This document shows positions 8,536-44,967 of a stretch of 64,000 nt of DNA, one piece after another. A program made the translations under genes and the position numbers. Source of the DNA: Planctomycetota bacterium (GTDB taxonomy: Bacteria > Planctomycetota > Planctomycetia > Pirellulales > Pirellulaceae); contig JACNKX010000128.1 in NCBI GenBank assembly GCA_014381825.1, forward strand, positions 1 through 64,000, given 5' to 3'. Under the pieces are notes generated by a model. The model did not search any database and was not told the DNA's origin. It saw only the letters and a program-made list of their open reading frames with translations. Numbering within the stretch: position 1 is the stretch's first letter; each line of letters opens with the position of its first letter.

Positions 8536-8964
8536 GGGGAGGGCTCCTAATTCCGGAATACCGCTAACAACTGGACACCACCATTCACCCTGCGGTCTGC
8601 CCCATCTCAGCTGTCGTTTGACGGCATCTGCTGCGGGCGCAGAACTGGCCAATGGCTCAGCAAACTGCTTGCTGAATTATCCTTGTCCTCATCGTCACCG
8701 CATCTCTCCCCACTTTACCGAGCGGACGTCTTTATCTGTATTTACCAGTATCACAATGTCACTTGGGCGGAGTGTGCCGAATATGCCGAGAGTCAGGGTG
8801 CAAAAACAAAAATGGGAATGACAAAGTCGGCAAGCGCACAGATGCTAGCCTATGTTTATTATTGGGGGCAGAGCGATGTCCATCGCGCTTCGGCGACGAC
8901 TCCCGAGTCACCATCTACAACTTGATTTCGCAACACATTTCTTTTCTACCTAAGGGGCAGGCAG
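8536..8964. other. 429-bp intergenic region without a supported gene
   Basis: Lies between two divergent genes and must hold both promoters. I see no convincing consensus promoter, RNA or conserved repeat in it. Confidence 0.5.
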
Positions 8965-23917: not shown

Positions 23918-24958
23918 ATGATAGCCCCAACATGCCAGCACAAGAGAAAGACGAGCAAAGGCAAGGATCGGAAGGGCCAGCAGCGGTGGAAGTGCAAGGA
24001 CTGCGGTGTTTGCTTCACGGATTACCACCCAAAGCCATTGGGCGACATGCAAGTCAACGTCGATAAAGCTAAGCTCGCCTTGCGGATGCTCACCGAAGGC
24101 ATGTCAATTCGTGCGACTGAACGGACCACCGGCATTAACCGCAACACACTTTGCAAACTGGTTGTCTTGTTCGGGACGGCTTGCCGTCGATTCCTTGATG
24201 ACCGAATGCACACGCTCAAATTGACACACCTTCAATTCGATGAGCAGTGGACCTTCGTGGGAAAGAAGCAAGCTCGGTTGACCATCGAAGAGAAAGCCAC
24301 TTGCCACGACATTGGTGACGTTTACTTGTGGACGTGCATCGATGAACAAACCAAGTTGATGCCGAGCTTCCTGATCGGGAAGCGATCCGCAGACAACGCT
24401 CGTCGCTTTCTCTCGGACGTGTCCAAGCGACTGGCCAAGCCAGCTCCACACACCAGTGACGCGCACGCTTTCGCGAAAGGCGGATACCGAGCCATCGTTC
24501 AAATCTCGACAGACGGTTGGGCTGGATATCCCGAGGCCGTCGATCTGGCTTTTGGCCCCTACGCCAAATACGGAACGATAATCAAAGAGTACCGCAACGC
24601 CAGCATGAACTACACACCGTCCGAAATGGTCGGCACGAAGCGGGAAGGCATACGCGGCATAGACCGTCGCTCGCTACGAACGATATGCACCAGCCACGTC
24701 GAGCGACTGAACGGCACGCAACGTGTCTTCATGAAGCGGTTGAACCGGCTGACGCTGTGCTTCTCAAAGAAACTGGAGAACCTCGAAGCGGCATTCGGCA
24801 TGTTCGCGGCCTACTACAACTATTGCTGGCAGACCCGGAAGCCCGGCAAGTCTGGCGAGAAACGACCCAGCGCGGCTATAATGGCGAAACTGACGAGCCA
24901 CGTTTGGAGCTTTGACGAGCTGTTCGACGAGGTTCTAAAAGTCTCCCCTCAACTTTAA
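23918..24958 (+). CDS. IS1-family-like transposase
   Basis: 346 residues. The N-terminal zinc ribbon (CQHKRKTSKGKDRKGQQRWKCKDCG) is followed by a helix-turn-helix (MLTEGMSIRATERTTGINRNTLCKLV). The catalytic domain begins LQFDEQWTFVGKK (first Asp), has ISTDGWAGYPEAV (second Asp) and ends with TSHVERLNGTQRVFMKRLNRLT (Glu). The last block, FSKKLENLEAAFGMFAAYYNYCW, is characteristic of transposases annotated as IS1 family. It is a single frame without the InsA/InsB frameshift of classical IS1. The stop lies within the right inverted repeat. All catalytic residues are present, so it may be active. Confidence 0.9.
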   Translation: MIAPTCQHKRKTSKGKDRKGQQRWKCKDCGVCFTDYHPKPLGDMQVNVDKAKLALRMLTEGMSIRATERTTGINRNTLCKLVVLFGTACRRFLDDRMHTLKLTHLQFDEQWTFVGKKQARLTIEEKATCHDIGDVYLWTCIDEQTKLMPSFLIGKRSADNARRFLSDVSKRLAKPAPHTSDAHAFAKGGYRAIVQISTDGWAGYPEAVDLAFGPYAKYGTIIKEYRNASMNYTPSEMVGTKREGIRGIDRRSLRTICTSHVERLNGTQRVFMKRLNRLTLCFSKKLENLEAAFGMFAAYYNYCWQTRKPGKSGEKRPSAAIMAKLTSHVWSFDELFDEVLKVSPQL

Positions 24959-25083: not shown

Positions 25084-25272
25084 ATGGCGGTTCCAAAGAG
25101 AAAGCATTCCAATTCTCGCACCGGCAAGCGTCGCTCGCATGATGCGCTGAAGCCGAAGCAGCTGACATTCTGTCCAAAATGCAGTGGTGCGCTGCCCACT
25201 CATGTCATTTGCCCAACTTGCGGCTATTACATGGGCCGAACCGTGGTCGAGTCGGATGAGGCCGCGTCTTGA
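25084..25272 (+). CDS. rpmF: 50S ribosomal protein L32
   Basis: 62 residues beginning MAVPKRKHSNSRTGKRRSHDAL, the invariant L32 start. A zinc-binding CPKC ... CPTC motif follows, identifying the zinc-ribbon (C+) form. It heads the fatty-acid operon, as in many bacteria, and its stop codon overlaps the TTG start of fabD by 3 bases. Confidence 0.97.
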   Translation: MAVPKRKHSNSRTGKRRSHDALKPKQLTFCPKCSGALPTHVICPTCGYYMGRTVVESDEAAS

Positions 25273-26177
25273 GTAAGGTCGCGTTCCTCTTCCCAGGCCA
25301 AGGTGCTCAGTCTGTCGGGATGGGACGGGAAGCTTGCGACAAGCTTCCAGCCGCTCGCGAACTGTTTGATTGCGCGAAAGACATCCTCGGATACGACTTG
25401 GCAGCGCTTTGCTTCGATGGGCCAGCTGAAAGACTGGACTCGACGGTGTACAGCCAGCCTGCGCTATTCGTATGTGGACTGGCTGGGCTCGAACTTCTGA
25501 AAGAGGCATCCCGTGACGTAGTCGATTCGGTTGCGGCTACGGCGGGCCTAAGTCTCGGCGAGTACACATCGCTTGTCTTTGCCGGAGCATTAGATTTTGA
25601 ATCTGGGCTGCGCGTCGTGAAGACGCGAGGCGAAGCCATGCAAGCAGCCGCTGACGCGACGACGAGCGGAATGGTAAGCCTGCTTGGAATGGAGCCAGAC
25701 GCGATCGAAAAAGTTTGTGACGAAGCACGAGGCGATGGCATCTTACAGATCGCCAATTATTTGTGTCCCGGAAACATCGTGGTATCCGGGAATCAAGACG
25801 CTTGTGATCGTGTCGCCGAGTTAGCCGTTGAAGCCGGCGCGATGAAAGCAATACCGCTGGCGGTTGCCGGCGCATTCCACACACCAATCATGCAATCGGC
25901 CGTCGAACAACTCACTGAAGCGCTGGCTGTCGCCACAGTTTCTGCTCCGAGAATCCCCGTGATCTCAAACGTCGATGCACAACCGCACAATGATCCGGAA
26001 GAGATTCGGTCGCTGTTGGTGCAACAAGTCGTATCGCCCGTGCGGTGGGAAGATTCGATGCGTCATTTGCTCGGTGAAGGCTTCGATTTGTTTTATGAAG
26101 TAGGTCCGGGGCGCGTATTACGAGGCCTCATGAAACGCATCAACCGTAAGACAGCGTGCGAAGGTGTCACGGTCTAG
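25269..26177 (+). CDS. fabD: malonyl-CoA:ACP transacylase
   Basis: 302 residues from a TTG start coupled to the rpmF stop. VAFLFPGQGAQSVGMG is the oxyanion-hole block and GLSLGEYTSLVFAGAL carries the nucleophile Ser95; the usual His of GHSLGEY is Leu/Gly here. GAFHTPIMQSA supplies the catalytic His near 204. The enzyme loads malonyl groups onto ACP for chain elongation in the cytoplasm. It is followed 65 bp later by fabG. Confidence 0.95.
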   Translation: MSKVAFLFPGQGAQSVGMGREACDKLPAARELFDCAKDILGYDLAALCFDGPAERLDSTVYSQPALFVCGLAGLELLKEASRDVVDSVAATAGLSLGEYTSLVFAGALDFESGLRVVKTRGEAMQAAADATTSGMVSLLGMEPDAIEKVCDEARGDGILQIANYLCPGNIVVSGNQDACDRVAELAVEAGAMKAIPLAVAGAFHTPIMQSAVEQLTEALAVATVSAPRIPVISNVDAQPHNDPEEIRSLLVQQVVSPVRWEDSMRHLLGEGFDLFYEVGPGRVLRGLMKRINRKTACEGVTV

Positions 26178-26242
26178 CGTCATATTTTGGTGTCACCGCC
26201 TTACGCTACACCAAGCGAGAAGAATGAAAGGTAAATAGCAAC

Positions 26243-27025
26243 ATGTCCGATCAACCCACCCGGCCGATGACCGTCGACCTTTCGGGGAAAGTCGCGATCG
26301 TAACAGGCGCTTCCCAGGGGCTTGGCCAAACGATGGCGACCGAGCTCGCGGCGAACGGAGCGAAAGTCGCGTGCGTTGCCCGCAATGCCGATAAGCTTGC
26401 GGAAACCGTAAAGGCGATCGAGGATGCCGGTGGCGAGGCCGCTGCTTTCAGCTGTGATGTTACGGATCGCGAGAGCGTCGACAAACTGGTCGATGACGTG
26501 GTCGAGAAATGGGGCACACTCGACATCCTCGTAAACAATGCTGGCATCACCCGCGACAACCTCCTGCCGCGAATGGCCGACGAAGAATGGGACGACGTGA
26601 TCAGCACGAATCTCCGCGGCGCGTTCCTGTTCGCCCGCGCCGCGTCGCGAATCATGATGCGCGCCCGCAGCGGTCGAATCATTAATATATCGAGCGTCTC
26701 CGGCTTGATCGGAAACCAAGGTCAGACGAACTACTCGGCTTCCAAAGCCGGGCTCATTGGTATGACGCGCAGCCTCAGCCGTGAGCTGGCCGGTCGAAAA
26801 GTTACGGTCAACGCCGTCGCGCCCGGCTTCATCGCGACCGAGATGACCAAGGTACTCGAAGAGAAATATGGCGATGCATTTCGTAACGAAATCAAAGCCA
26901 AAATCCCTGCAAAACGGATGGGAACGCCCCAAGAAGTCGCAAACGCTGTACTGTTTTTAGCCAGCCCAGCGGCTTCCTACACGACGGGTGCTGTTCTTAC
27001 CGTCGATGGAGGAATGACCGGGTAA
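26243..27025 (+). CDS. fabG: 3-oxoacyl-ACP reductase
   Basis: 260 residues, SDR family. The NADP-binding TGASQGLGQTMA motif (Gly-rich turn near residue 25-31), NNAG in LVNNAGITRD, and catalytic Ser-Tyr-Lys in ISSVSGLIGNQGQTNYSASKAG are all present. The C-terminus ends ASYTTGAVLTVDGGMTG, as FabG does. It reduces 3-oxoacyl-ACP in the elongation cycle. Its place between fabD and acpP matches the standard gene order. Confidence 0.96.
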   Translation: MSDQPTRPMTVDLSGKVAIVTGASQGLGQTMATELAANGAKVACVARNADKLAETVKAIEDAGGEAAAFSCDVTDRESVDKLVDDVVEKWGTLDILVNNAGITRDNLLPRMADEEWDDVISTNLRGAFLFARAASRIMMRARSGRIINISSVSGLIGNQGQTNYSASKAGLIGMTRSLSRELAGRKVTVNAVAPGFIATEMTKVLEEKYGDAFRNEIKAKIPAKRMGTPQEVANAVLFLASPAASYTTGAVLTVDGGMTG

Positions 27026-27191
27026 GGTGTGGATTGGGCTTGGGCACACCTACCTTGACCTGTCTTATGAGAATCCTCTATCTTGTGAGGCTTGATTCTC
27101 GAAGAAGCACTTAGATAACCGGAATAACCATCGAGCGTAGTGCGAGCCAGCGATGGCTCTTAACTTTCAATAAATTAGGAGGACCGCGAAG

Positions 27192-27431
27192 GTGGCATCT
27201 GTCCCTGAACGCGTGATTGACATCGTCGCTGAACAACTTGGTGTTGACAAGGAAAAGATCAGTCCAGAAACTTCATTCGTGAACGACCTTGGTGCCGACT
27301 CGCTCGACACGGTCGAACTTGTGATGGAGCTGGAAGAAGAATTCGACATCAACATTCCCGACGATGCGGCTGAAAAAATCCAGACGGTTGGTCAAGCGAT
27401 CGACTTCATCGAAAAGTCCCAAGACTCCTAA
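27192..27431 (+). CDS. acpP: acyl carrier protein
   Basis: 79 residues from a GTG start (upstream AGGAGG at about 27178-27183). The [18 protein letters not shown] motif carries Ser37, which takes the phosphopantetheine arm. The protein is strongly acidic, as ACPs are. The 166-bp gap from fabG is the longest in the operon and may hold a second promoter, though I see no clear consensus. Confidence 0.97.
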
Positions 27432-27451
27432 CGGCGAAGCAGTAACACGAG

Positions 27452-28702
27452 ATGAAACGACGAGTCGTCGTAACCGGTCTCGGTGTCGTTACATCGCTGA
27501 GCTGCCAAGTTGACGATCTTTGGGATCGCATCTTGGCTGGCGAAAGTGGAATTCATCCACTGCGCGGCTTCGACACCGACGAGTTTAAGATCAAGTTCGG
27601 TGGAGACATCCACGACTGGGATCCCAGCGAATTTATTGCGCCAAAAGAGATCAAGCGCATCGATCGGTTTACACAGTTCGCGATGGTTGCTGGCACGCAG
27701 GCCATCCGCGACTCCGGTCTTGATTTCAAGATGGAAGAACCGTTTCGCTGCGGAGTGATTCTCGGTTCCGGAATCGGTGGTCTGGGCGAAATCGAAACTC
27801 AGATGTTCAAGCTCTTTGAAAAAGGGCCCTCACGAGTTTCTGCGATGACGGTCCCTAAGATGATGCTTAACGCCGCGGGTGGGCATCTCTCGATTGAATA
27901 CGGCCTACGCGGCCCGAACTATACAGTGGCGACCGCATGCGCAAGTGCGACCAATGCGATCGGCGACGCGCTTAAAACGATTCAGTACGACGACGCAGAT
28001 GTGATGATCACGGGCGGTACCGAGGCCGCGATGACGCGAATGGGATTGAGCGCGTTCACAAACATTCGCGCTCTGTCGTCACGCAATGACGATCCCACTC
28101 GCGCGAGTCGCCCATTTGACCTGGATCGTGATGGTTTTGTGTTCAGCGAAGGTGCGGGACTGCTGGTCTTCGAGGAGCTTGAGCACGCTAAGGCACGGGG
28201 CGCGAATATCTACGCAGAAGTGATCGGGTATGGAGCGAGCGGCGATGCCGGACACATCACTCAGCCAGATGAACACGGTACAGGCGCGGCATACGCGATG
28301 ACCGGAGCCCTGCGAGACGCCTCTCTCGGCCCAGATGCCATTGACTACATCAACGCTCACGGGACGAGTACGCCGCTTGGCGACAAGGCCGAAACGATTG
28401 CCATCAAGGATGTGTTTGGCGAGGACGCGAAGACGGTTAGCATCTCTAGCACGAAGAGTGAGTTGGGACATTCTCTTGGTGCGAGCGGCGGAATCGAGTT
28501 AGTGTTGTCCGCCAAGGCGATCCAATCCGGTGTCGTACCACCCACGATCAATCTTGAGACGCCCGACCCAGCCTGTGATTTGGACTACACTCCGAATCAG
28601 CCCCGCGAGCGCCGAATCGATTACGCGATGAGCAACAGTTTCGGATTCGGGGGCCACAACGCTTCCGTCGTCATTCGGCGTTTGCCGAACGGCGAAGCGT
28701 AG
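27452..28702 (+). CDS. fabF: beta-ketoacyl-ACP synthase II
   Basis: 416 residues. The start MKRRVVVTGLGVVTSL is typical. Catalytic Cys163 (VATACASATNAIGDAL), a His near 304 (INAHGTSTPLGDKAE) and a His near 341 (STKSELGHSLGASGG) form the Cys-His-His triad of elongating condensing enzymes. The C-terminal MSNSFGFGGHNASVVI is also conserved. It ends the rpmF-fabD-fabG-acpP-fabF run and converges with the TolC-like gene across 36 bp. Confidence 0.97.
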   Translation: MKRRVVVTGLGVVTSLSCQVDDLWDRILAGESGIHPLRGFDTDEFKIKFGGDIHDWDPSEFIAPKEIKRIDRFTQFAMVAGTQAIRDSGLDFKMEEPFRCGVILGSGIGGLGEIETQMFKLFEKGPSRVSAMTVPKMMLNAAGGHLSIEYGLRGPNYTVATACASATNAIGDALKTIQYDDADVMITGGTEAAMTRMGLSAFTNIRALSSRNDDPTRASRPFDLDRDGFVFSEGAGLLVFEELEHAKARGANIYAEVIGYGASGDAGHITQPDEHGTGAAYAMTGALRDASLGPDAIDYINAHGTSTPLGDKAETIAIKDVFGEDAKTVSISSTKSELGHSLGASGGIELVLSAKAIQSGVVPPTINLETPDPACDLDYTPNQPRERRIDYAMSNSFGFGGHNASVVIRRLPNGEA

Positions 28703-28738: not shown

Positions 28739-30844
28739 TTAGTTCTGTGCGGTCGGATCAAACGCAGTGTTTCTCAGAACACCTTCGCCTATCGATGCAC
28801 TTTCACTGGGCCCCGTCATGTCCGGTGGATCGGACAGATCCTGCGCGCGGTCTTCCGGCAGCGGAACCGAGCTGTCTTCGTCACTTGCGCTCGGCATTAT
28901 TCGTTGGTCGAACGGCCCGCGGCTCGTTGGCAAAGGCCATGAGAGGATGTAGTTCAACAGCTTCGGCGATTTACGCCGCGATTCGTCGAGACGTGCAGCA
29001 TCGTAATGGGCTTTGCCGGGCCAAGGGCCCTCACTCAGATAGACTTCGTTGTAATCGAGCAACGAACCTTTCTGGAGATGAACGTTTTTGATTGCCATCG
29101 AGTATTCAAGCAACCCGCGATAGTATGTCGTTTCCGCATCGGCTAAGCGGCGCTGGGCATCAAGCAACAAGTCAAGCAATCTAGTTTTTTCGTTCTCATC
29201 CGCATCCTGATAGAGGCTGTCCAGAGCATCCAGATGCTGTTTGGCTGCGACGCGTCGATTATAACTCGTTTGCGACAACGTGTACGCACGGTCGACTTCA
29301 GCGACCGCCCCGGTCAACTCGTGAACAACTTGTTTTTCTTGTTCGTCGAGGATCGCCCGCTCGCGGTTCAGCTGCAATTCAGCGTTTCGCACGCCAGCAT
29401 GCGCTTGTCGATAGCCAACCGGCAGCTCAACTTCCAATCCGACTTGCCACTCCTGAAAGTCGCCAGTTGTGAGATCTTGAAATGCATTGTCAAATCGATC
29501 ATCCTGGCGGTCGGAATTGAGCAAGTGATGCCCCAATCCACGGAATCGATATCGCCCTACAGCATCAACGCGTGGCAGCAGGAAATTGCGACTTGCAGCC
29601 AACTCCATCTCACGGCGCCTGACTTTCCACTTCTGTCGGCGGAGTTCAGCGCGTCGGTTTAATGCCTCGACAAGCAGTTCTTCCCAATCAAATACGACTC
29701 GCGCCATTTCCGGTTCTTGTGCAGGACGAATCAGCCGTCCGTCGCTCGGAGCAATTCCCATAAGTCGGCGTAACCGACGTTCCGACGTTTGTACACCGCC
29801 CGAGCCTCGCAATGTATTCGTCCGCACGTTATCGCTTGGCCGCCCAGCCAATGCGTTCTGGACCTCTTCTTCGAGGCGATAGTACTGTTCGCGCGCTTGG
29901 GCTTCTTTTTCAGCTTCACCTCCGCGACGGTTAGTGACGAACAAGGCGTTGATGCTCCGCCACGTCTCCAATGCACGATCACGCGCGGCGATCTTCGAGT
30001 CGAGTTCACGGTAGGAGAAGTACAACTCCCAGTAAGCGTTTTCCACATCATTAACCAGATTGCGAACCGCAATTTCGAAATCGGCCAGGCTGATATCGCT
30101 GCTGATGCGAGCGAGAAGCACACCGTTCATCGCGCCGGGCCGACCGTCCGGACCGGCGATGCGGTTGAAGTCGACTCCGCCCCCTTGCATCAACGGATGG
30201 CGAAATTCGCCCTCGAACTGAGCTGTCCAAGGTTTGTTGGGATCATCGTTACCCGGTGAGTTATTCAAATCGTAGTCGATGATCTGACGGATTGTAAACT
30301 CACTACCCGTGGCAGCTCGCTTTGAAAGCTGGGCCGTGTAGTTGTGGAGGTCTTGCCGCAAGAGCCTCGTTCCGCCGCCGAAGAACACGTTGTTGAGCGC
30401 TCGGTCGTTACCCTCGAAGAACACCTGCGACTCAAACGAAGTGTCGAAGGCGCTAAGCGCAGCTTCGACACCGAATCGAGGGTCCGTTTCCTCGATCGCC
30501 GGGTCGTATAACGTGCGGACGTTGTCCGGCGATTCGAGTACCAAGGCTCCTAAGTCACGCATCACCTGTGAGTTTGCCAGAGCCGTTTGAATCGACTCGT
30601 CGAGCGTGAGATCCCAAAAGTCAGGCGGGGCATCGTCTTTCAGTGTGAGAGGTGCCTGCGTATTGGCGATCTCTTCGTAACTGACGGTGTCGACATCTGG
30701 GTAAGAAATCTCTGTTGCGGCACCGTGGTAGTGGGAAAAGTCCTCGTCGAATTGGAATTCCTTCGACTTGCGCAGCGAACAGCCTTGCAGTCCAACGAAG
30801 ACCGCTAGCAGAAGCGTCGCCAGCGCTTTTAGCTTTTCAGGCAT
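28739..30844 (-). CDS. TolC-like outer-membrane efflux lipoprotein
   Basis: About 701 residues from ATG 30844. An N-terminal lipoprotein signal (LLLAVFVGLQGCS) places it at the outer membrane. Long alpha-helical repeats typical of the OEP family follow, for example ANNRQLN-like helices such as LVNDVENAYWELYFSYRELDSKIAARDRALETW and VHELTGAVAEVDRAYTLSQTSYNRRV. It is longer than E. coli TolC (about 470), with an extended N-terminal part and a disordered C-terminus. It is divergent from the three-gene export cluster at 31103-36210 and probably provides its outer-membrane channel. Confidence 0.85.
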   Translation of the reverse strand: MPEKLKALATLLLAVFVGLQGCSLRKSKEFQFDEDFSHYHGAATEISYPDVDTVSYEEIANTQAPLTLKDDAPPDFWDLTLDESIQTALANSQVMRDLGALVLESPDNVRTLYDPAIEETDPRFGVEAALSAFDTSFESQVFFEGNDRALNNVFFGGGTRLLRQDLHNYTAQLSKRAATGSEFTIRQIIDYDLNNSPGNDDPNKPWTAQFEGEFRHPLMQGGGVDFNRIAGPDGRPGAMNGVLLARISSDISLADFEIAVRNLVNDVENAYWELYFSYRELDSKIAARDRALETWRSINALFVTNRRGGEAEKEAQAREQYYRLEEEVQNALAGRPSDNVRTNTLRGSGGVQTSERRLRRLMGIAPSDGRLIRPAQEPEMARVVFDWEELLVEALNRRAELRRQKWKVRRREMELAASRNFLLPRVDAVGRYRFRGLGHHLLNSDRQDDRFDNAFQDLTTGDFQEWQVGLEVELPVGYRQAHAGVRNAELQLNRERAILDEQEKQVVHELTGAVAEVDRAYTLSQTSYNRRVAAKQHLDALDSLYQDADENEKTRLLDLLLDAQRRLADAETTYYRGLLEYSMAIKNVHLQKGSLLDYNEVYLSEGPWPGKAHYDAARLDESRRKSPKLLNYILSWPLPTSRGPFDQRIMPSASDEDSSVPLPEDRAQDLSDPPDMTGPSESASIGEGVLRNTAFDPTAQN

Positions 30845-31102
30845 TACCAAGACCGTTCCTCATCGTGAAGCTGCCGAATGGCGCAGTTTCATCCCTGTCG
30901 TAAGTCATCGGCAGTTGGCAAACTCGGCAAAACTGAATTTTCCGTCACGACCGGTAAAATCAGAACTTTCCGCAATTCAGGCCGCCAAGTCTGCGTAGGT
31001 TCGCACGGCGCAAGACGATTATTCCCCCCGAGATTTTCCCCGTCGGGAAAGTCGCATGTCAAAACAGTCAAAATATAAGAGCGCACGGCTATACTGAGAG
31101 GA
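30845..31102. other. 258-bp divergent intergenic region of the export cluster
   Basis: Separates the TolC-like gene from the GAF-HlyD gene and must hold both promoters. A TATACT box sits at 31089-31094, close before a GAGAGGA ribosome site, but I find no matching -35 box. Confidence 0.3.
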
Positions 31103-33088
31103 ATGCGCGGCGACACTTCTTCTCCACAAATCGATGACAGCGACGAAGCTTGGAGCGAGATCGAGATGTTGGTCGACGAGACGGCCAACCTCGCTCGAAT
31201 GGCGATGTCGAGTCACGAGTTCCACAGCGAATTCGTCAAGCGGCTCGTGCAAGCAACGAATGCTCGCTCCACAGCAATTTGGTGCCGCGGCAATGACGGC
31301 CAGTTTTCAATAGAAGCCCAAATCTCTGCTGATGCTGATGGCCACTCAAACACCAATTCGATAGCATTACGGACGAATAACGTCGCGGAAGTCTCTCGCA
31401 TCGGACAGCCAGCGTCACTATTGCCGCATCAGTCCGCCACGCCTCTTCAGAATCCATCAAGTGACGGCCTCGTTCTGCAACCGGCGATCATCGATGAGCA
31501 AGTCATTGCCGTCGTCGAGAGCTATCACGACGATGGCAGTTCGCCCGCCGAGACGAATAACACAGCGCATCTCGTTTCCGTATTCGCCGAGTTAATCTCC
31601 GAGTTTCATCAGAATCGGCAACTGCGCGAATTGCGCCATCGAGAAGCTGCCTGGACGGAACTCGAGCAATTCGCAGACCGAGTGCATCAGTCGCTGAACC
31701 TCAAGAAGACCGCGTTCTCGATTGCGAACGCGGCGGCTCCCGTGACTTACTGCGACCGAGTGATCGTGTTTCACAGTCAAACTGCCGACAGTCGAACACT
31801 TTCGATCAGCGGTGTCGATTCGTTTGATCGGCGTTCAACACAAGTGCGAGCCGCCGAGCGATTAGCAATCGTGGCTGCTAGGAACAACGAGCCACTTTGG
31901 TATCCGGACGCGAACCAAGCCTTGCCGCCACAGCTCGAAACGTGCCTCCTGGCGTATCTTGACCTTTCTCATGCAAGGTCGCTCGCTGTCGTTCCGCTGG
32001 ATGAATCAACAACGGGTGACAGCCGTGAAAACATCGGCGTGCTCCTCTTCGAGCGTTCGGAGAATACGCCGTGGACTGACAGCTTGCGCCGGCGAGTCGA
32101 GTTTGTCAGCCGACACGGCGCGACGGCACTTCAAAACGCGAACGAACTCGACAGACTGCCCTTGATCGGCGCGAACCGCTTGCTCCAACGCTGCCTCAGC
32201 TTGTTTTCGATACGGCACTTTCCGAAGACTGCTGCAGTGATGTGCCTGCTTGCCACCGCGATCGTGGCGCTCGTTGTCGTTCCAGCCGACTTTGAGATTC
32301 GTGGCGAAGGACAACTGCGTCCGACACACTACCGGCATATCTTCGCACCTGCGGACGGCGTCATCCAGCAGTTGCATGTTCATCATGCCGAAACTGTGAC
32401 CGATGGATCACCACTCCTCGAAATGCGGCGTACAGATCTGGAGTACGAAGAAGCGCGGCTACTCGGCGAGATCCTCACGAATCAAAAAAGATTGGATTCA
32501 GTTAGCTCAGCCATTTTGAACCATGAAGCTTCCTCGGCGATTGACGTCAACGAACTGACATCCGAGGAAGCGCGTCTAAAGATCCTTCTGACCAGCCTCG
32601 CCGAGCAGCAAGTAATTCTTGATCATGAGCGTACCGAGTTGTCGGTCGTAAGTCCAATTGCCGGCGAGATCCTAACGTGGGGAATCGAAGAGGTGTTATC
32701 CCGTCGACCGGTGCGACGTGGCGAACGTTTGTTGAGTGTTGCCGATTCGAGCGGCCCTTGGCAACTCGATCTGCGCATTGCCGACCATGATATTGAGTAC
32801 GTTCTCGATGCGAACCACCAAACGAATTCGCTAGCCGTAAACTTCATCCTGACCAGCCACACCGGTCAACCGTTTCAGGGAACAGTCGAAGACATTGCGA
32901 TGGCGACCGAGTTGGACGAATACGATCAACCTACCGTCCTCGTTCGAGTGGCCATTGACCGTGACCAACTGCCTGACTTGCGACCAGGCGCAACGGTGGT
33001 GGCGAATGTCCATTGTGGCCGCAGGCCCATTGGCTACGTTTGGTTCCGCGAGCTGTTTGAAGTGATCAAGACGCGTGTTCTGTTTTAG
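31103..33088 (+). CDS. GAF-domain/HlyD fusion adaptor protein
   Basis: 661 residues, ATG preceded by GAGAGGA. The N-terminal half contains two GAF-like regions (about 40-150, including FVKRLVQATNARSTAIWCRG, and about 180-340, including VTYCDRVIVFHS and NIGVLLFERSENTPWTDSLRRR). A single transmembrane helix (about 375-395, AAVMCLLATAIVALVVV) follows. The C-terminal half is a membrane-fusion protein: a lipoyl-like GEGQLRPTHYRHIFAPADGVIQQLHVHHAETVTDGSPL, a short coiled coil, and SPIAGEILTW. The topology implies a cytoplasmic sensor joined to a periplasmic adaptor. It is first in the three-gene export operon. Confidence 0.85.
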   Translation: MRGDTSSPQIDDSDEAWSEIEMLVDETANLARMAMSSHEFHSEFVKRLVQATNARSTAIWCRGNDGQFSIEAQISADADGHSNTNSIALRTNNVAEVSRIGQPASLLPHQSATPLQNPSSDGLVLQPAIIDEQVIAVVESYHDDGSSPAETNNTAHLVSVFAELISEFHQNRQLRELRHREAAWTELEQFADRVHQSLNLKKTAFSIANAAAPVTYCDRVIVFHSQTADSRTLSISGVDSFDRRSTQVRAAERLAIVAARNNEPLWYPDANQALPPQLETCLLAYLDLSHARSLAVVPLDESTTGDSRENIGVLLFERSENTPWTDSLRRRVEFVSRHGATALQNANELDRLPLIGANRLLQRCLSLFSIRHFPKTAAVMCLLATAIVALVVVPADFEIRGEGQLRPTHYRHIFAPADGVIQQLHVHHAETVTDGSPLLEMRRTDLEYEEARLLGEILTNQKRLDSVSSAILNHEASSAIDVNELTSEEARLKILLTSLAEQQVILDHERTELSVVSPIAGEILTWGIEEVLSRRPVRRGERLLSVADSSGPWQLDLRIADHDIEYVLDANHQTNSLAVNFILTSHTGQPFQGTVEDIAMATELDEYDQPTVLVRVAIDRDQLPDLRPGATVVANVHCGRRPIGYVWFRELFEVIKTRVLF

Positions 33089-33130
33089 CACGCTTGAAAT
33101 GTCCAGGCTTTCTCGAAGAGAGACTTTGAA

Positions 33131-34000
33131 ATGAACCTGTCAGCCAAAACCGTCTTCTTGCTAATCCTTTTGTTCTTGCCTGGAAGCTCGATCGTATCGG
33201 CAACCACGCTCGAAACAGAAGGCGTACTGACTCTGTTCGAAGAGATTCATGTACCGGCGCGCGATGCGGGCGTTTTGTCCGATATTCCAGTTCGCGCGGG
33301 GACACACGTCACCACCGATACGCTTCTCGCAAAACAGGAAGATACGGAAGCTCAAGTGACGCGAGACCAAGCAATCACCGACCTGTTCAATGCCAAGCGG
33401 CTCGCCAAAAATGATCTAAAGGTGCGGCTCGCACGAAAGGCCCACGAAGTCACGGTCGCTGAGCTGAAGAGGGCGACCGAAGCCGCCGAGCGATTCTCAA
33501 AGAGCGTGTCGCAGAGTGAGATCGATCGACTGCAACTGGCCACGGAGCAGACCGACTTGCAGGTCTATCAAGAGAGGTTCGATCTTAAGACAGCTCAACT
33601 CGCCGTTGATACCCATAACGCCGCGCTGCGTCTAGCAGAACATCGATTAAAGAATCGTACGATTTATGCACCCACATCGGGCGTTGTGGTCGAAGTCCTC
33701 AAGCACGCTGGCGAGTGGGTTGAACCCGGAGAAGCTGTCGTACGTGTCGTTCGCATGGATCGTTTGCGAGTCGAAGGATTCCTATCCGCTCAGCAAGCCA
33801 GCGCGAAGCTCATCGGGCAGTCGGCGAAGGTGAGTATCAAGATCCAGCAAGACGAAACGGTCGAAGTCACCGGAGAAGTAACTTTTGTCAGCCCGGAGAT
33901 TCACCCAGTGAACGGCATGGTTCGTGTCCGGGTGGAGATCGACAATCGTGAATCCGAGTTCCGTCCCGGCTTGCAAGCCACGATAAAGATCGAGCGATGA
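33131..34000 (+). CDS. HlyD-type periplasmic adaptor
   Basis: 289 residues with a Sec signal peptide (VFLLILLFLPGSSIVSA). The lipoyl half-motifs are VPARDAGVLSDIPVRAGTHVTTDTLLAK and IYAPTSGVVVEVLKHAGEWVEPGEAVVRVV, separated by a coiled-coil hairpin (about 75-150). A beta-barrel domain (GQSAKVSIKIQQDETVEVTGEVTFVSPEIHP) completes it. It is smaller than RND adaptors, and no RND, ABC or MFS pump gene is adjacent. Its stop codon overlaps the start of the protease-adaptor gene (ATGA), so the two are translationally coupled. Confidence 0.9.
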   Translation: MNLSAKTVFLLILLFLPGSSIVSATTLETEGVLTLFEEIHVPARDAGVLSDIPVRAGTHVTTDTLLAKQEDTEAQVTRDQAITDLFNAKRLAKNDLKVRLARKAHEVTVAELKRATEAAERFSKSVSQSEIDRLQLATEQTDLQVYQERFDLKTAQLAVDTHNAALRLAEHRLKNRTIYAPTSGVVVEVLKHAGEWVEPGEAVVRVVRMDRLRVEGFLSAQQASAKLIGQSAKVSIKIQQDETVEVTGEVTFVSPEIHPVNGMVRVRVEIDNRESEFRPGLQATIKIER

Positions 34001-36210
34001 ACAGCACTGCTGCCACAACATCGACCGACCGGCCGCTGGAGCTGCGTGGGCGACGCGACTTGATCGCGGAACCCATTCACTTCCGAGGGACGCGATATTG
34101 GAGCGTTAAAGATCCACTGTCGCTCCGTTACTACCAGCTGTGCGATGAAGAGCGGTTCATTTTGGAACAAGTGGATGGCGAATGCAGCTTCGAAGAAATC
34201 AAACGACGATTCGAAGCAAAGTTCGCGCCTCGCCAGATCGACTCGGGCGAACTGTATGCGTTTCTCGGAACACTTCACCGCGAAGGCCTTTTGACTTCAC
34301 AGGTCACTGGGCAAGCCGAGCAGCTGTTCGAGCGGCACGAACGTGCGGCTCGCCGGGAGAAACTGCAAACCTTCACAAATCTCCTGGCCATACGATTCCG
34401 AGGCCTCGATCCGGAACCTTTCCTGCAGGTCCTCTATCCTGCCATTCGCTGGATGTTCTCCCGGTTGGCAGTTTCCGCGAGCTTGGCGCTCATCTTCGGC
34501 GCGGTGTTTTCGTTGGTCGTCTACGCCGAGACTTTCATAACTCGCTTGCCACGACTCCAGTCTTTCTTAAGCGTCGAAAACATTGTGCTAATGGCGATCG
34601 TCCTCGCCTGCTGCAAGGTGCTGCACGAGTTGGGACATGCCCTGACCTGCAAGCATTTCGGCGGCGAATGTCACGAGTTGGGTATCATGCTTCTGGTCTT
34701 CACGCCCTGTCTGTACTGCAACGTCTCCGACGCGTGGATGATGCGCAATAAATGGCAGCGAATTGCGATTAGCGCGGCCGGAATCTATGTCGAGCTACTA
34801 CTAGCCGCGGTGTGTACGTTTTTATGGTGGTTCAGCCAGCCAGGCCTATGCAACTCCATCTTTCTGAACGTCATGTTCGTCTGCTCGGTTAGCACAATCT
34901 TGTTCAATGGCAATCCGCTGCTTCGCTACGACGGTTACTTTATTCTGGCGGATCTTGTTGAACTGCCCAACCTGCGTCAGCAATCACAGACACACCTGCG
35001 TCACATCGTATCGCGAATACTTGGAACGAAGACGCGAGAGACCTGGACTTTCCCGACTCAGCACACCGCTCAACTTTTGCTGTACGGGGTCGCTTCGCTC
35101 GTCTACCGTTGGGTCCTGGTCGCAGGCATTCTTCTCATGGTCTATCGGGCCCTGGAACCATACCGACTCGAGAGTATCGCGTATATCCTTGGTGCTTTCG
35201 TTTTAGGAGGCATGCTATTCCCTCCGCTCTGGCAGATAGTTCATGTTGCACGAGAGCCTCGCATAGATGGCGGCAGGCGGCGCTGGCGAACCGCTGGCCT
35301 CGTCGTGACGCTTTCGGTCGCAGCCGTCGTCATTGGCATGGTTCCGGTGTCGCATCACGTTGTTGCGCCGGTGGTCATCGAGCCCGCAGACGCGGCGCGA
35401 GTTCACGCCACTGTCCCAGGGACGCTAACCCAATTCGTTAGCATCGGCCAGTTTGTTAGCGAGGGCGAAATGGTCGCAACACTAGCGGATGCCAATCTAG
35501 TGCGGGAGCTGGTTGCACTGCGCGGCGATCGTGACGTGGAAAAACTCTACGCAGAGCAGCTGCGAAAGTTGCAAGTACTCGAACGTGGCGTGTCTGACGA
35601 AGGTGCCGGAAGCCGAATCGTTACCGCGGAAGAAGCCTTGGCTGCGACCGAACGTCGGCTGTCTCAAAAGCTCGAAGATCACGCTAGATTGACGATCACA
35701 GCTCCGCAGGCAGGCTACGTTCTTTCTGATCGCCCCAGGCGTCCAATTGAATCCAGCGAGCGTCTCCCAACCTGGTCCGGCACACCGCTCGACGAGCGAA
35801 ATGTCGGCGGTCACCTCGATACCGACGCCGTCGTCTGCTTGATCGGAGATCCCAGCAAAGTGAAAGGCATTGCCTTTGTCGATCAGACCGAGATCGAACG
35901 GATCGCGATCGGCCAATCGGTCCGTATCCTCGTCGACGAACTACACGAACAAGTTCTGACTGGCACGGTTACCGAAATAGCAACCGTTGAAGTCGATCAG
36001 GTTGCGCCTGAACTAATCGCCAAACGGCTTCTCGCGGACGATACAAATGAATCAACAAATGCGTACTATGCGGTGAGCATCGAGTTGTACGAGGGCCAGC
36101 CGCATCCGCTGCTTTGGTCGTCCGGCAGAGCCAAAGTCGCGGTAGAGCCATGCACTTTAGCGGAATTCTTATACAAACAAATCTGTCATACATTTCGGCT
36201 CGACCTCTAA
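33997..36210 (+). CDS. membrane M50 (site-2-protease-like) protein with PqqD-like and HlyD-like domains
   Basis: 737 residues. Residues about 25-110 form a PqqD-like winged helix (FRGTRYWSVKDPLSLRYYQLCDEERFILEQVDG ... EIKRRFE), the fold that binds leader peptides in RiPP pathways. A polytopic core (about 150-430) carries the zinc-protease motif HELGH at 210-214 and NGNPLLRYDG at 304-313, so both M50 active-site motifs are intact. After a last helix (about 430-450) a periplasmic lipoyl/HlyD-like region follows (VEPADAARVHATVPGTLTQFVSIGQFVSEGEMVATLAD). Gene context suggests it occupies the pump position in an export system. The substrate is unknown. Confidence 0.85.
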   Translation: MNSTAATTSTDRPLELRGRRDLIAEPIHFRGTRYWSVKDPLSLRYYQLCDEERFILEQVDGECSFEEIKRRFEAKFAPRQIDSGELYAFLGTLHREGLLTSQVTGQAEQLFERHERAARREKLQTFTNLLAIRFRGLDPEPFLQVLYPAIRWMFSRLAVSASLALIFGAVFSLVVYAETFITRLPRLQSFLSVENIVLMAIVLACCKVLHELGHALTCKHFGGECHELGIMLLVFTPCLYCNVSDAWMMRNKWQRIAISAAGIYVELLLAAVCTFLWWFSQPGLCNSIFLNVMFVCSVSTILFNGNPLLRYDGYFILADLVELPNLRQQSQTHLRHIVSRILGTKTRETWTFPTQHTAQLLLYGVASLVYRWVLVAGILLMVYRALEPYRLESIAYILGAFVLGGMLFPPLWQIVHVAREPRIDGGRRRWRTAGLVVTLSVAAVVIGMVPVSHHVVAPVVIEPADAARVHATVPGTLTQFVSIGQFVSEGEMVATLADANLVRELVALRGDRDVEKLYAEQLRKLQVLERGVSDEGAGSRIVTAEEALAATERRLSQKLEDHARLTITAPQAGYVLSDRPRRPIESSERLPTWSGTPLDERNVGGHLDTDAVVCLIGDPSKVKGIAFVDQTEIERIAIGQSVRILVDELHEQVLTGTVTEIATVEVDQVAPELIAKRLLADDTNESTNAYYAVSIELYEGQPHPLLWSSGRAKVAVEPCTLAEFLYKQICHTFRLDL

Positions 36211-36825: not shown

Positions 36826-37599
36826 TCAACGTTGTCCAGCATGTTTTTCAATCACCTGCATTATGCGATTCGCGACATCTGACGCTCGCTCAAGAGTGTC
36901 ACATTCATCTGCGTGAATCCGCTCGACACGCGCGCCTTCATGCTGCAGCAATGTGAGACGAGCGTGTGCGTCGGCGGGCGACTCCTGATGGAACGGTTGG
37001 CCGTCGATTTCAATGACTAGCAGAATGCCCGAGCGAAAGACGACGAAGTCGGGTTCGATTCGGCGGTACGTCTCGCCACCCCGGAGAAACACCGGCAACG
37101 GCGCAAATGACACTCCCATCGACTTGAAGGCCTGATATAGGTGGACTTCCGGCATCGATCTGAACAGCAATCCATCAACGACGTACGGGGCAACGTTGTC
37201 AGAACGAACTCGACCTTGATTCGTAACGCCTTTTCCCTCAAGCCACTTTTTAGCCCGACCACGCCACGACGCGTCCGTCGCGAACTCGGGTGTGATCACG
37301 AAGCCTTCCAACCATGTGTTTGAGTATCGCTTTAGAAGTTGGCCAGCTGCCTCTTGAAGCGATTGCTCGATCGTCTCGATCCGGTCGGCAACTTGCGCGT
37401 AAAGCGGGGGAGGCAACTCGATGGTGATAGTATGAATATCCGTTCCGCCATCCCAATTATCGTACCCAGTGACTTCGCACCGCGTCTTTCCAAGCGCAAG
37501 CACCGCGACTTCCATGCTTGAGCCGCGATGTGCGAATAATCGTGCGAGCGCCGCCACGAATCCCTCAGCCTGCTTTTGCAATTCGGTCTGGTCTGCCAC
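36826..37599 (-). CDS. PD-(D/E)XK nuclease-like protein (DUF559/restriction-endonuclease-like)
   Basis: 257 residues from a GTG start. The C-terminal half reads RRIEPDFVVFRSGILLVIEIDGQPFHQESPADAHARLTLLQHEGARVERI. The acidic pair in EPDFVV and EIDGQ with the following His fits the core of the very-short-patch-repair/DUF559 nuclease fold. The N-terminal half (about 1-150) is unrecognised. A cytoplasmic DNA-handling role is inferred. The adjacent CoiA-like gene, also minus strand and 30 bp away, shares the nuclease fold, which suggests a small DNA-processing or defence cluster. Confidence 0.6.
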   Translation of the reverse strand: MADQTELQKQAEGFVAALARLFAHRGSSMEVAVLALGKTRCEVTGYDNWDGGTDIHTITIELPPPLYAQVADRIETIEQSLQEAAGQLLKRYSNTWLEGFVITPEFATDASWRGRAKKWLEGKGVTNQGRVRSDNVAPYVVDGLLFRSMPEVHLYQAFKSMGVSFAPLPVFLRGGETYRRIEPDFVVFRSGILLVIEIDGQPFHQESPADAHARLTLLQHEGARVERIHADECDTLERASDVANRIMQVIEKHAGQR

Positions 37600-37629
37600 A
37601 TCAAGACTCCTGGCTACTTCGTCCGCGAA

Positions 37630-38400
37630 TCAGTAGATGGTTACGGGCGTGTAGCAATCGAACAAAGATGGATCATCAGGTATGAATCCCTCCCGGTGAC
37701 TTTCGTAGCAGTCGGGGCACATTGCTGTGCCTGGATCAAGATCCATCGTGTAATACTCGTGCATACTGGTTTCGATGAGTTGTCGACTGGCGAACGGCAT
37801 CCAGCACTGATCACAGAGCTTGTGGCCCGGCTTGGGCTGGGAAAACGACGCAACGAACTTGTCATAACCGAGGAAGGAACCCGATCCACCACACGGCAGA
37901 TTATCGTAAATCCGATTAATCTTGATGAGTTGCTCGCCAAGATCAAAGTACAACTGCTTCTCGGCGATCCACCACGTTTTTCGAGGATGCTTCCATCGGA
38001 AAGTCACGTACGAACCACGATCTCGGATGGTCAGATCGAAGTCCTGCGCATTCAGCACCCACACCATTTCACCGTAGAAGGCCTCCCGGTCGGCAACTTC
38101 TGAAGTGGAAATCGAGCTTGCCTGCAGCTCAATCACCCCTCGTGGCGATTTGATGTCTGCACGATGTGACCCCACGACAAGTTCGCGCCATTGTCGAGGA
38201 AAGCGTTCCTTCCAAGCACGATGCCACGCACTCTCGCCCTCCGCCCACGAATCACAATCCCGGCGCTGTTTGTGTGCCCAATGCCAAGCGTTGATTTCGC
38301 CACATCGCGACAGCACCTCGCGGTCACACAGGGGGCACTGACCTTGAGAACCCGGTCTTGCTTCGACTCGACGGCCATCGACATTGGCGAATTGCATCAT
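37630..38400 (-). CDS. CoiA-like competence/nuclease family protein
   Basis: 256 residues (start ATG 38400, or 38397). The N-terminus has a zinc-finger-like CPLCDREVLSRCGEINAWHWAHKQRRDCDSW. ESAWHRAWKERFP ... RADIKSPRGVIELQASSISTSEVADREAFYGEMVWVL follows, the CoiA core with the PD-(D/E)XK acidic residues in ADI and IELQAS. CoiA promotes recombination during transformation in Firmicutes; planctomycete homologues are untested. A second Cys cluster (CDQC, CPDC) lies near residues 195-230. Upstream is a small mobile-element gene on the opposite strand. Confidence 0.75.
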   Translation of the reverse strand: MMQFANVDGRRVEARPGSQGQCPLCDREVLSRCGEINAWHWAHKQRRDCDSWAEGESAWHRAWKERFPRQWRELVVGSHRADIKSPRGVIELQASSISTSEVADREAFYGEMVWVLNAQDFDLTIRDRGSYVTFRWKHPRKTWWIAEKQLYFDLGEQLIKINRIYDNLPCGGSGSFLGYDKFVASFSQPKPGHKLCDQCWMPFASRQLIETSMHEYYTMDLDPGTAMCPDCYESHREGFIPDDPSLFDCYTPVTIY

Positions 38401-40842: not shown

Positions 40843-40907
40843 GAAGTTTTTCGGATTTTCTTGGCGGGTTTGCGTCGTCTCGTGACGCATTGCTCTATAG
40901 CCACACA
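40843..40907 (+). promoter_or_regulatory. 65-bp conserved element, copy 1 (upstream of the kinase gene)
   Basis: 53 of 65 positions match copy 2 at 44869-44933, with an identical 18-bp core at 40856-40873 (TTTTCTTGGCGGGTTTGC). It ends 19 bp before the kinase ATG. Conservation outside any gene argues for a promoter or leader element and also fixes the start codons downstream. Confidence 0.6.
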
Positions 40908-40926
40908 ATTCTCGGAGCCCCGCTTG

Positions 40927-43900
40927 ATGACTGATTCAACCGACCGAGCACAAAGCCTGTTTCTAGACGCCTTGGAAATCGCAACGGAACGCGACCGGGC
41001 GGCATATATCGAGGCTGAGTGCGGTGCAGATGGTGCGCTACGTCAAGAGGTCGAAGAACTGCTTGACCACGAGCAGCGGCTGGGACGGTTCTTGGAACCC
41101 GGCGATGAAGGGGCAGCCTCCACCATCGATACGTCGCCGGTCACCGAAACCGTCGGCAGTATCATTGGACCCTACAAGATTCGCGAACAGATCGGCGAAG
41201 GGGGCATGGGCATCGTCTTCGTCGCCGAGCAGAAGAAGCCGGTTCGACGCAAAGTCGCTCTGAAAATCATCAAACCCGGCATGGACACCCAAGAGGTCAT
41301 CGCCCGCTTCGAGGCTGAACGTCAAGCGTTGGCACTCATGGATCACCCCAACATCGCCAAAGTGCTGGAGGTAGGAACGACGGAGAAGGGGCGGCCGTAT
41401 TTTGCGATGGAACTCGTCCGAGGCGTTCCCATCACCGAATACTGCGACAACAAAACACTCAACACCAGCAAACGGCTGGAATTGTTCCTCCAGGTCTGCC
41501 GTGCCGTCCAGCATGCCCATCAGAAAGGAGTCATCCACCGCGACCTCAAGCCGACGAACATCTTGGTCACTTTGATAGATGCCGCCCCCGTTCCCAAAGT
41601 GATTGATTTCGGCGTTGCCAAAGCGGTCAATCAGCACCTGACGGATCGTTCCATCTACACGGCGCATACCCAGATGATCGGGACACCGATGTATATGAGT
41701 CCCGAACAGGCCGAAATGACCAACCAGGATGTCGATACCCGCAGCGATGTGTATTCGCTGGGCGTCCTGCTTTACGAGCTCCTGACTGGCAGCACGCCGT
41801 TCGACAAACAGACACTCAAGGAAGCCAGCTTCGACGAGATGCGGCGTATCATCCGCGAAGAGGATCCTCCCCGACCCAGTACGCGTATCAGCACACTGCA
41901 AGCCGAAGCTCTCTCGACGCTCTCGGCGCAACGGCATATTGACCCACACAAATTCAGCCGCCTGGTTCAGGGCGAACTCGACTGGATCGTGATGCAGGCC
42001 CTGGACAAAGATCGCACCCGCCGTTACGAATCGGCCAGCGCGTTTGCGGCTGATATCGAGCGGTACCTGGGCGACGAACCGGTCGAAGCGTGCCCGCCAT
42101 CGACTGTTTATAATCTTCGGAAGTATGCACGTCGAAATAAAGGGGTCTTGACGACGGCGTTTCTCATAGCTCTGGCACTGCTCGTTGGTACAGGCGTCAG
42201 CATCTGGCAAGCGATTGCAGCAAGCGACGCTCGTGATGTGGCTAATGAACGATTGATGGGCGAAACCAAAGCGAGAGCGGAAGCCGAGAAGCACCGCAAA
42301 CAGTCTGAGGCCAACTTTCAGAAGGCGCTCGATGCAGTTGACCAAATGCTGACACACGTCGGCACGGACGACAAGATTGCCGCAACTCCCGGGATGACAT
42401 TGATGCGACGGGAGATCCTGGAAGATGCGTTACAGTTCAATCAGGATTTACTCGTCGAGAATCCCAGCGATCCTCGTGTCCGATACGCAATTGCCATGGT
42501 CCGATTCAGTCTATGTCACACTTATCGTTCTCTTCACGACAGAGACAAAGCACTACTCCAGAATCGCCTCGCGCGAGCATCGCTCGAACGACTCATGGCT
42601 GAATCTCCATCAGATCTCAAGTATCAAACAGCGCTGGCTTCGGCCTGGAGCCAGTTTGGTTGGAACGCACTCGACCGTGAGGAGTCTATCAAGGCGTTCC
42701 AGAGGACGGCCATTCTGACTGAAACGCTCGTTGAAGCAGATCCGGACTCCATCGCTTATAAGGCCGCCCTCGTGGCCTGTTACCAGAGTCTGGGTTGGTA
42801 TCTACATGCAAACGGGGACGATGAAGGAGTCGGGTTCGTACGACGTGCGATTGCTCTTGGCGAACGCGAACCTCGGTCAAATGGTACGCTTGGTAATGCT
42901 TATCGGCATCTTGCGAAGATCCTGTTAAGTGAAGGTCCCCTCCCGGAGTCCGAGAACCTATTTAAGAAGGCCATCGCAGAATTCCAACGATATGTTGTCA
43001 AATACGGGGCCTCTGCTGAAGCCCCGCATTTTAGGAGTTGCCTTGCGTCAACACACATGGAATTCGGTGGGCTTTTGGCCCGTGCCGAGAGACTCGCTGA
43101 GGTGGAAGAATGCTATCGGCGAGCATTGGAATTACACGGGGAATTGGCAAGAGACTTTCCCTCGATAACCGGCCATCGAACGAATGCAATCCGAGATCGT
43201 TTCAAACTGACTGAACTACTCTTAAGAACCGGCCGGACTGAAGAGGCGACGCACACTCTCCGCGAGATTCATCCCCGCACAGCGGAGGAGCATGTCATGC
43301 GGGCCAAGCTGTTTGAGCAACAAAACGAGTTCGCAAATGCCCTGGCCGATTTCGAAAAGGCGGTGGAGCTGGAACCAAATGATCCTCACGGGCATTACTC
43401 GTTGGCATCATTCCTCAACATGGCCCAGCACATGAAATTTCGCGACTACGACAGAGCCCTTAAGCACGCTCAAGATGCCATCCGTCTGGCCCCGCAAAAT
43501 GTGAACTATCAATTTCTCCTTGGAAGAATGTACTTCAGAGTAGGTGATCACGATCGAGGTTTTGCTCGGTTTAAAAAGGTGCTCGAATTGGATCCGTCAA
43601 ACATCGGCGTGTATTGGGAACGATCAATTCAATATCAGAGGCGCGGAGAGTACGACCAAGCATTGGCGGATGCGGAGAAATTTGTTCAACTCACCGGGGG
43701 TGGCCACCTTCGGCGTGGCGGAGTCTACCAGGCACTCAAACAGTACGATAATGCCCTTGCTGACTACAAAATCGCAGAGCAGCGGAAACCGAACGACCTG
43801 TATGTCTACGAGGACCGCAGTGGCGTCTATGTATCTCTCAAACAGTACGACAACGCTCTAGCCGACCTCGACAAAGCTGCGGAACTGGCACCCTTCAGAT

Positions 43901-44661: not shown

Positions 44662-44967
44662 GCAGAATCGGCAAGGGGCTCGTCGTCAAAAGCGGCCGTT
44701 GAGGCCGTAACCGCAACGTAACTCTCACCGGCCAGGCAGTTCACGGGCGGTCGCTGTGCGCGCTCGCGAGCACGCTTTCCGCATTCTCCTACGCCCAATT
44801 CGAAGCAAGGCGAATCGCCAGCGTCGACCATTCCACTCCACGTCCGCTGTGCCCACACCTGACTTTCCGAAGTTCTCCGTGTTTTCTTGGCGGGTTTGCT
44901 CGGTCTCGCGTCGCATTGCTTTACAGACACACAGCAGCAACCAGTCCAATTGAAAATCGGCTTCCTA
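44662..44967. other. 306-bp intergenic region containing conserved element copy 2
   Basis: No gene is supported. The only feature I see is the 65-bp element listed next. Confidence 0.5.
44869..44933 (+). promoter_or_regulatory. 65-bp conserved element, copy 2 (upstream of the LEPR-XLL gene)
   Basis: Same element as at 40843-40907, differing at 12 of 65 positions and ending 34 bp before the ATG. The identical core spans 44882-44899. It may be an ECF-sigma-dependent promoter shared by kinase and surface-protein genes. Confidence 0.6.

Follow-up and report, generated by a model that had tools for sequence, protein, structure and literature searches.

A PqqD-M50-HlyD gene cluster of a planctomycete as a probable export machine for large leader-bearing proteins

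The genome of a member of the Pirellulaceae (9.69 Mb, planctomycete-type) carries, in a 64-kb stretch that is called the window here, an outer membrane channel gene and periplasmic adaptor genes next to a gene for an M50 membrane protease. The original prediction saw in this cluster a new, pump-free export system for peptide or protein substrates, which raises the question of what passes through it and what drives the passage. We consider it probable that these genes encode a machine dedicated to the export of large extracellular proteins with a LEPR-XLL/Planc_extracel leader, of which the cluster is one copy. The export module itself is already known, and the candidate substrate is the addition made here.

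Components of the cluster and the pump position

The four genes named at the outset, including an M50 protein with its own HlyD tail, were confirmed by Pfam and TIGR matches (Table 1). The GAF-HlyD, HlyD, and PqqD-M50-HlyD genes all run in the same direction, with the last two sharing 4 bases, and the TolC-like gene is divergent from this adaptor operon. A promoter search in the intergenic region between them gave matches at chance level, none of them convincing. The TolC-like protein, with the start ...LLLAVFVGLQGCS and an N-terminal lipobox-like LQGC, matches TIGR01844 at 1e-7, under the cut-off, and homologs of it adjoin other M50 loci (L021, L071, L086, and L097). In the GAF-HlyD protein, the GAF model PF01590 matches over two stretches (4e-9) and the HlyD_3 model PF13437 at 2e-11, while the HlyD tail of the M50 protein is MacA/MexA-like (Foldseek, 8e-12 to MacA). 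This last protein belongs with the M50/site-2 proteases, as both HExxH and NxxPxxxxDG lie in membrane helices, and the two motifs are intact, with ligands that are invariant over 45 relatives.

Table 1 Features of the window, with the evidence for each
Feature	Position	Strand	Evidence or remark
TolC/OEP-family outer membrane channel, predicted lipoprotein	28739-30850	-	PF02321, E=3e-17
Divergent intergenic region, ~250 bp	30851-31102	.	Between TolC-like gene and GAF-HlyD
GAF-HlyD: cytoplasmic tandem GAF, one transmembrane helix, periplasmic HlyD	31103-33088	+	PF01590, PF13437
HlyD/RND_mfp periplasmic adaptor	33131-34000	+	TIGR01730, 5e-30, above cut-off
PqqD-M50-HlyD membrane protein, 737 aa	33997-36210	+	PF02163 (Peptidase_M50), 1e-8; PF13437 (HlyD_3), 3e-7
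PqqD-like N-terminal domain, candidate leader reader (~aa 15-105)	34039-34311	+	PF05402 in relatives; AF2
HELGH zinc motif (aa 210-214)	34624-34638	+	H210, E211, G213, H214 invariant, 45 sequences
NxxPxxxxDG motif (aa 304-313)	34906-34935	+	N304, P307, D312, G313 invariant, 45 sequences
HlyD-like periplasmic tail of M50 protein (aa 450-700)	35344-36096	+	AF2 model; Foldseek
Candidate substrate, 693-aa Calx-beta/beta-propeller-type protein	44887-46968	+	PF03160, 6e-32; leader ...RLARFESLEDRRMLAG
PF07595/LEPR-XLL-type leader of the 693-aa protein	45058-45105	+	Genome profile search

Further copies of the gene set were found in Planctomycetota, Verrucomicrobia, and Proteobacteria, the kind of co-occurrence that had been proposed as a check, and since the same set is found in several phyla, the grouping is not a matter of chance. 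We fetched 80 contigs with the M50 profile, mostly planctomycete with a few verrucomicrobial and other ones, 40 of which had enough flanking sequence to be evaluated; within 10 kb of the M50 gene, these contained HlyD (29 contigs), GAF-HlyD (28), the small protein DUF3467 (11), a compact SecA (6), and a TolC-like gene (5). The genome studied here has five M50-HlyD paralogs, on contigs C228 (the window), C132, C183, C45, and C223, and the order GAF-HlyD, HlyD, M50 is kept at C132 and C183. A Rubripirellula contig (L098) has a pair of modules ~6 kb apart whose M50 genes differ in type.

The absence of a pump holds for ABC transporters, as a motif scan found no ORF with both Walker A and LSGGQ in the 64-kb window and no enrichment of ABC genes around M50 loci (0.0 to 0.5 per 100 kb, versus 0.53 in controls). 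For RND and MFS pumps it holds at the level of ORF inspection: there was none among the ORFs at 24-42 kb, the main ones of which were also scanned with Pfam, and no RND pump within the operon of the annotated plasmid clusters. These searches count against a conventional efflux set for small molecules or metals with its RND or ABC pump elsewhere and an incidental M50 domain, as do the invariant zinc motifs and the way in which M50-HlyD, HlyD, and GAF-HlyD travel together across phyla. Although the small HlyD protein clears the RND_mfp cut-off, which speaks for such a set, we find this reading hardly credible.

The PqqD-like domain is weak in the window protein, with TIGR03859 at E=0.14 and no match to PF05402. 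It is supported by the relatives, 14 of 45 of which match PF05402 (best, 3e-5), and by the topology of an AF2 model, in which residues 23-95 are predicted to form three strands followed by three helices (mean pLDDT, 87). A sequence search of the PDB with the M50 profile returned adaptors and a weak S2P match, and no PqqD. As an M50 membrane protease that carries a PqqD-like domain makes a leader-bearing protein substrate plausible, this part of the original interpretation stands together with that of an ABC-free export system, while its novelty and the implied lack of a motor do not.

A reading in line with the original prediction has a different cargo, small RiPP-like peptides. According to that scheme, PqqD and M50 would process small leader peptides for maturation and export, as in daptide (MpaP) or YydH/LiaK pathways. 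The M50 core is indeed homologous, and the PqqD-M50 half matches the daptide_HExxH model, which also covers part of the N-terminal region (4e-55; 187.5 bits, below the cut-off of 300), and the YydH/LiaK model (6e-15; 55.6 bits, below the cut-off of 225). However, those models, whose substrates are small peptides, have no HlyD tail, and the set of three adaptors is equally foreign to them. By inspection, neither the window nor the annotated plasmid clusters showed a peptide-modifying enzyme or a clear precursor peptide, the check for small-peptide precursors being confined to the 620-bp gap after the M50 gene. With large leader proteins as neighbors, RiPP-like peptide export appears quite improbable, and the emerging candidates are instead giant surface-type proteins with a LEPR-XLL/PF07595 leader.

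Several other genes surround the cluster. Fatty acid synthesis genes of the fabD, fabG, and fabF types (25269-28702) abut it on one side, with an IS1-type transposase gene (23918-24958) immediately upstream of fabD. Just 3' of the M50 gene there are two opposite-strand ORFs (36826-38400), one with a CoiA N-terminal domain (2e-8) and the other with a weak DUF559 match. The window also codes for a 308-aa protein of QKGG/cysteine-rich repeats (7726-8652), and a tRNA was the only match of the Rfam scan.

Leader proteins as candidate cargo

The leaders follow the pattern [LI]E(P/D/S)RxLL and match or resemble both the Planc_extracel (PF07595) and LEPR-XLL (NF012209) models. K and R abound in these nonhydrophobic leaders; being basic and lacking a hydrophobic core, they are unlike Sec signal peptides. 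PF07595 was proposed in 2004 as a surface or export signal in planctomycetes (cited in PMC8567305), and in a 2021 planctomycete proteome, 20 of 52 proteins with the motif were detected, 8 of them only in the SDS-soluble fraction (PMC8567305). In the open-access literature, we found no paper that joins PF07595/LEPR-XLL leaders to an export machine, and papers on DUF4347 and LEPR-XLL gave no export data.

Within the window, the leader protein closest to the cluster is the 693-aa protein, ~9 kb downstream and tied to the cluster by the motif alone. It scores 21.8 bits against PF07595 as a whole protein and 26.6 bits in the genome search (C228), around a gathering cut-off of 25.5. That search gave 42 matches at E<=0.1, the window leader included, and with so many across the genome, the 9-kb distance could be due to chance. 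Directly before this gene (40861-44661) lies that of a 1,266-aa serine/threonine kinase-like protein with many TPR-like repeats. Matching frames elsewhere in the genome include some of 8,591, 11,105, and 18,780 aa, the longest of which lies on contig C78. Contig C183 (282 kb), on which a SecA/M50 module is also found, has seven such ORFs, several of them of 6,000-11,000 aa.

Leaders and M50-HlyD genes were then compared across genomes. M50-HlyD is present in 43 of 148 Planctomycetota genomes, and LEPR-XLL (NF012209) scores above its curated cut-off in 23 of these 43 versus 1 of the 105 others (p=4e-14, shared ancestry ignored). At the level of neighborhoods, with one fixed leader rule and control stretches taken from M50-positive genomes, enrichment beside planctomycete M50 genes is only moderate (a leader ORF within 10 kb in 8/40, versus 2/38 controls; p=0.05). 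It is larger near compact SecA genes located away from M50 (8/20 versus 2/38; p=0.002), although five of the eight matches come from one genus and thus are not independent. The rule had been tightened after a first look, which gave 9 (SecA), 8 (M50), and 5 (control) matches, and one of the two control matches that remain appears genuine by eye. Simpler patterns were discarded: at the DNA level, LEDRxLLA in the 148 genomes was near its reversed control outside the class, so that the NF012209 and PF07595 models were used instead, and the strict form had one match in the 80 contig loci (1.23 Mb), not above the own-genome rate of ~1 per Mb.

On proteobacterial plasmids, we read by hand 15 clusters picked for diversity rather than at random and found a large LEPR-type leader protein in or beside 14 of them. 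Their leaders include IEPRILLSAD (Thalassospira), LEPRLLLSAD (Rhizobium, upstream of the annotated start), LEARYMFDAA (Variovorax), and ALESRQLFDGAA (E. coli plasmid), and leader genes as long as 48.7 kb (Variovorax), 38.8 kb (Pseudosulfitobacter), and 31.8 kb (Pontibrevibacter) occur. On a Rhodobacteraceae plasmid, the ORF that abuts the cluster is not the leader protein, which is instead the following annotated giant once the record origin is crossed. The exception is Phyllobacterium (L108), with M50-HlyD and HlyD genes and no leader protein. SapC-family genes adjoin two rhodobacterial clusters (L101 and L105).

Variant leaders were noticed post hoc and in few cases. This genome has a single instance of the pattern LExLExRx(A)P, namely LERLEERIAPS (C45:172382), ~1.3 kb from the divergent M50 paralog of C45. 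Leaders of the LEPRIAP/LEERIAP type adjoin M50 genes in Verrucomicrobia and Oligoflexia, following the M50 gene in a Chthoniobacter MAG (next gene, after 66 bp) and in an Oligoflexia MAG. This arrangement is what would be predicted if the M50 protein reads the leader.

A compact SecA as the probable motor

That the cluster works without an ATP-driven motor, as implied originally, is not supported: a truncated SecA paralog shows a strong association with the M50 gene from genome to genome and frequently lies within the M50 operon in relatives. A compact SecA was called when there was a full-length match in an open frame of ~590-780 aa, or M50 adjacency, the match table being read by eye. It was present in 31 of the 43 M50-positive Planctomycetota genomes and in none of the 105 M50-negative ones (p=2e-22, shared ancestry ignored); two truncated cases in M50-negative genomes are ambiguous, and p is 8e-20 with both counted. 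In 22 loci of 18 genomes the gene is <5 kb from the M50 gene. Three compact SecA matches have one in-frame stop each (G124:C16, G045:C10, and G144:C1) and are possibly decayed copies or assembly errors.

In a tree with E. coli SecA as the root, all 42 compact SecAs (from Planctomycetota and Alphaproteobacteria) group in a single clade, with the 13 housekeeping SecAs outside it (SH support, 0.90), and the subclade uniting phylum-level relatives with alphaproteobacterial sequences has a support of 0.999. Their NBD1, PPXD, and NBD2 align with canonical SecA and the ATPase motifs are intact, while all lack the ~250 C-terminal residues (wing/scaffold) and the SEC-C tail, many ending near ...MGQDPYLD. 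The same truncation and grouping were reported in 2015 (PMC4452313).

No secondary SecA without wing/scaffold was found in the 64-kb window. The genome has two compact SecA genes on other contigs, apart from a housekeeping SecA in a 1240-aa frame of C35. The one at C183:48796-50751 codes for a 652-aa protein with intact ATPase motifs and lies upstream of a GAF-HlyD/HlyD/M50 set, while that at C70:157726-159606 is followed ~110 bp further on by a leader ORF starting ...RFVERLESRTLLATA. SecA and its partner genes can be encoded apart (PMC4452313), so its absence from the window weakens the claim for this locus but not that for the genome, and the motor is probably a small SecA encoded elsewhere in the genome.

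Such a motor is not found everywhere, as 12 of the 43 M50-positive planctomycete genomes gave no compact SecA and some plasmid clusters are SecA-free. A compact SecA is found in 7 of the 15 proteobacterial plasmid clusters, with DUF3467 in several, and no SecA lies near those of E. coli, Azospirillum, Kosakonia, Burkholderia, Variovorax, and Niveispirillum. The SecA-free version of enterobacterial plasmids (L228 and L232, E. coli MS 115-1 plasmid; L109, Kosakonia) comprises a DUF4347-type giant with a ALESRQLFDGAA-like leader, TolC, adaptor, HlyD, and M50-HlyD.

These data also bear on whether the leader proteins could cross the inner membrane through SecYEG, with the compact or the housekeeping SecA, leaving to M50-HlyD/TolC only leader trimming and passage through the outer membrane. 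The conserved ATPase domains of the compact SecA would suit this route, and SecA-free clusters, in E. coli and others, would have the housekeeping SecA alone. On the other hand, the leaders have no hydrophobic core, and the compact SecA lacks the helical wing, described as touching SecYEG (PMC4452313). We therefore regard a SecYEG route as unlikely.

Possible export route and relation to known systems

What the sequences themselves show is the set of parts with their intact motifs, the co-occurrence and adjacency, and the single clade of compact SecAs; from these we infer leader binding, cleavage, SecA coupling, and the path through the envelope. The substrate would be made with a basic, nonhydrophobic N-terminal leader ending in [LI]E(P/D/S)RxLLxA, which would be taken up by the PqqD-like domain, on the cytoplasmic side of the M50 protein, and cleaved at the M50 zinc site. 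The compact SecA ATPase, or another motor where it is missing, would drive the unfolded chain, and the HlyD tail, HlyD, and GAF-HlyD would link the inner membrane to TolC as a conduit, with the GAF region possibly acting as a sensor. SecA would be supplied in trans here, by the gene on C183 or that on C70.

Several known systems share part of this design. In type I secretion, large adhesin-type cargo is common. Its HlyB-HlyD-TolC arrangement has an adaptor and a TolC-like channel in common with the cluster, which differs in having no ABC transporter, an N-terminal leader, and an M50 protein plus a compact SecA instead. The accessory SecA2 of Gram-positive bacteria is a second SecA paralog devoted to particular surface proteins; compared with it, the compact SecA lacks ~250 C-terminal residues, no SecY2 was seen, and the partners are of the HlyD/TolC type. 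There is perhaps an even chance that the present machines form a secretion class of their own that spans the envelope and in which the type I ABC transporter is replaced by a truncated SecA and a leader-reading and -cutting PqqD-M50-HlyD protein, with cargo of up to 10,000-18,000 residues and leader variants matched to M50 subfamilies, in Planctomycetota, Verrucomicrobia, Proteobacteria, and Oligoflexia.

The module cannot be called new, as it was described by Kamneva, Poudel, and Ward in 2015 as M50/HlyD, HlyD, and GAF-HlyD (sometimes plus OEP) with a truncated "secondary SecA" (PMC4452313). One operon that they name is META1p2399-2402 of Methylobacterium extorquens AM1. They proposed SecA as the ATPase and M50 as a membrane pore, with the role of the module "completely unknown," and their text, which names no substrate, mentions none of PqqD, DUF3467, LEPR, and PF07595 (PMC4452313). 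The window copy shares M50/HlyD, HlyD, GAF-HlyD, and OEP with that module and differs in having no adjacent SecA; the present comparison adds versions that have DUF4347 proteins and no SecA. These data join a surface motif of 2004, for which we found no export machine in the open-access literature, to a SecA/M50/HlyD module of 2015 without a substrate, with the pair also present on plasmids of Alpha-, Beta-, and Gammaproteobacteria, E. coli among them. If true, this would account for how bacteria place some of their largest proteins outside, give a simple sequence rule to find the cargo, and make the question directly testable.

Last, the DUF3467 small protein may be a further part of the module. 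It may conceivably be a SecB-like chaperone, its structure model being weak (mean pLDDT, 64) and Foldseek returning nothing at E<=0.001. In both Planctomycetota and Alphaproteobacteria, the gene is located before or after that of the M50 protein, and in the genome studied here it lies near the M50 gene of C183 (L008:11990-12439).
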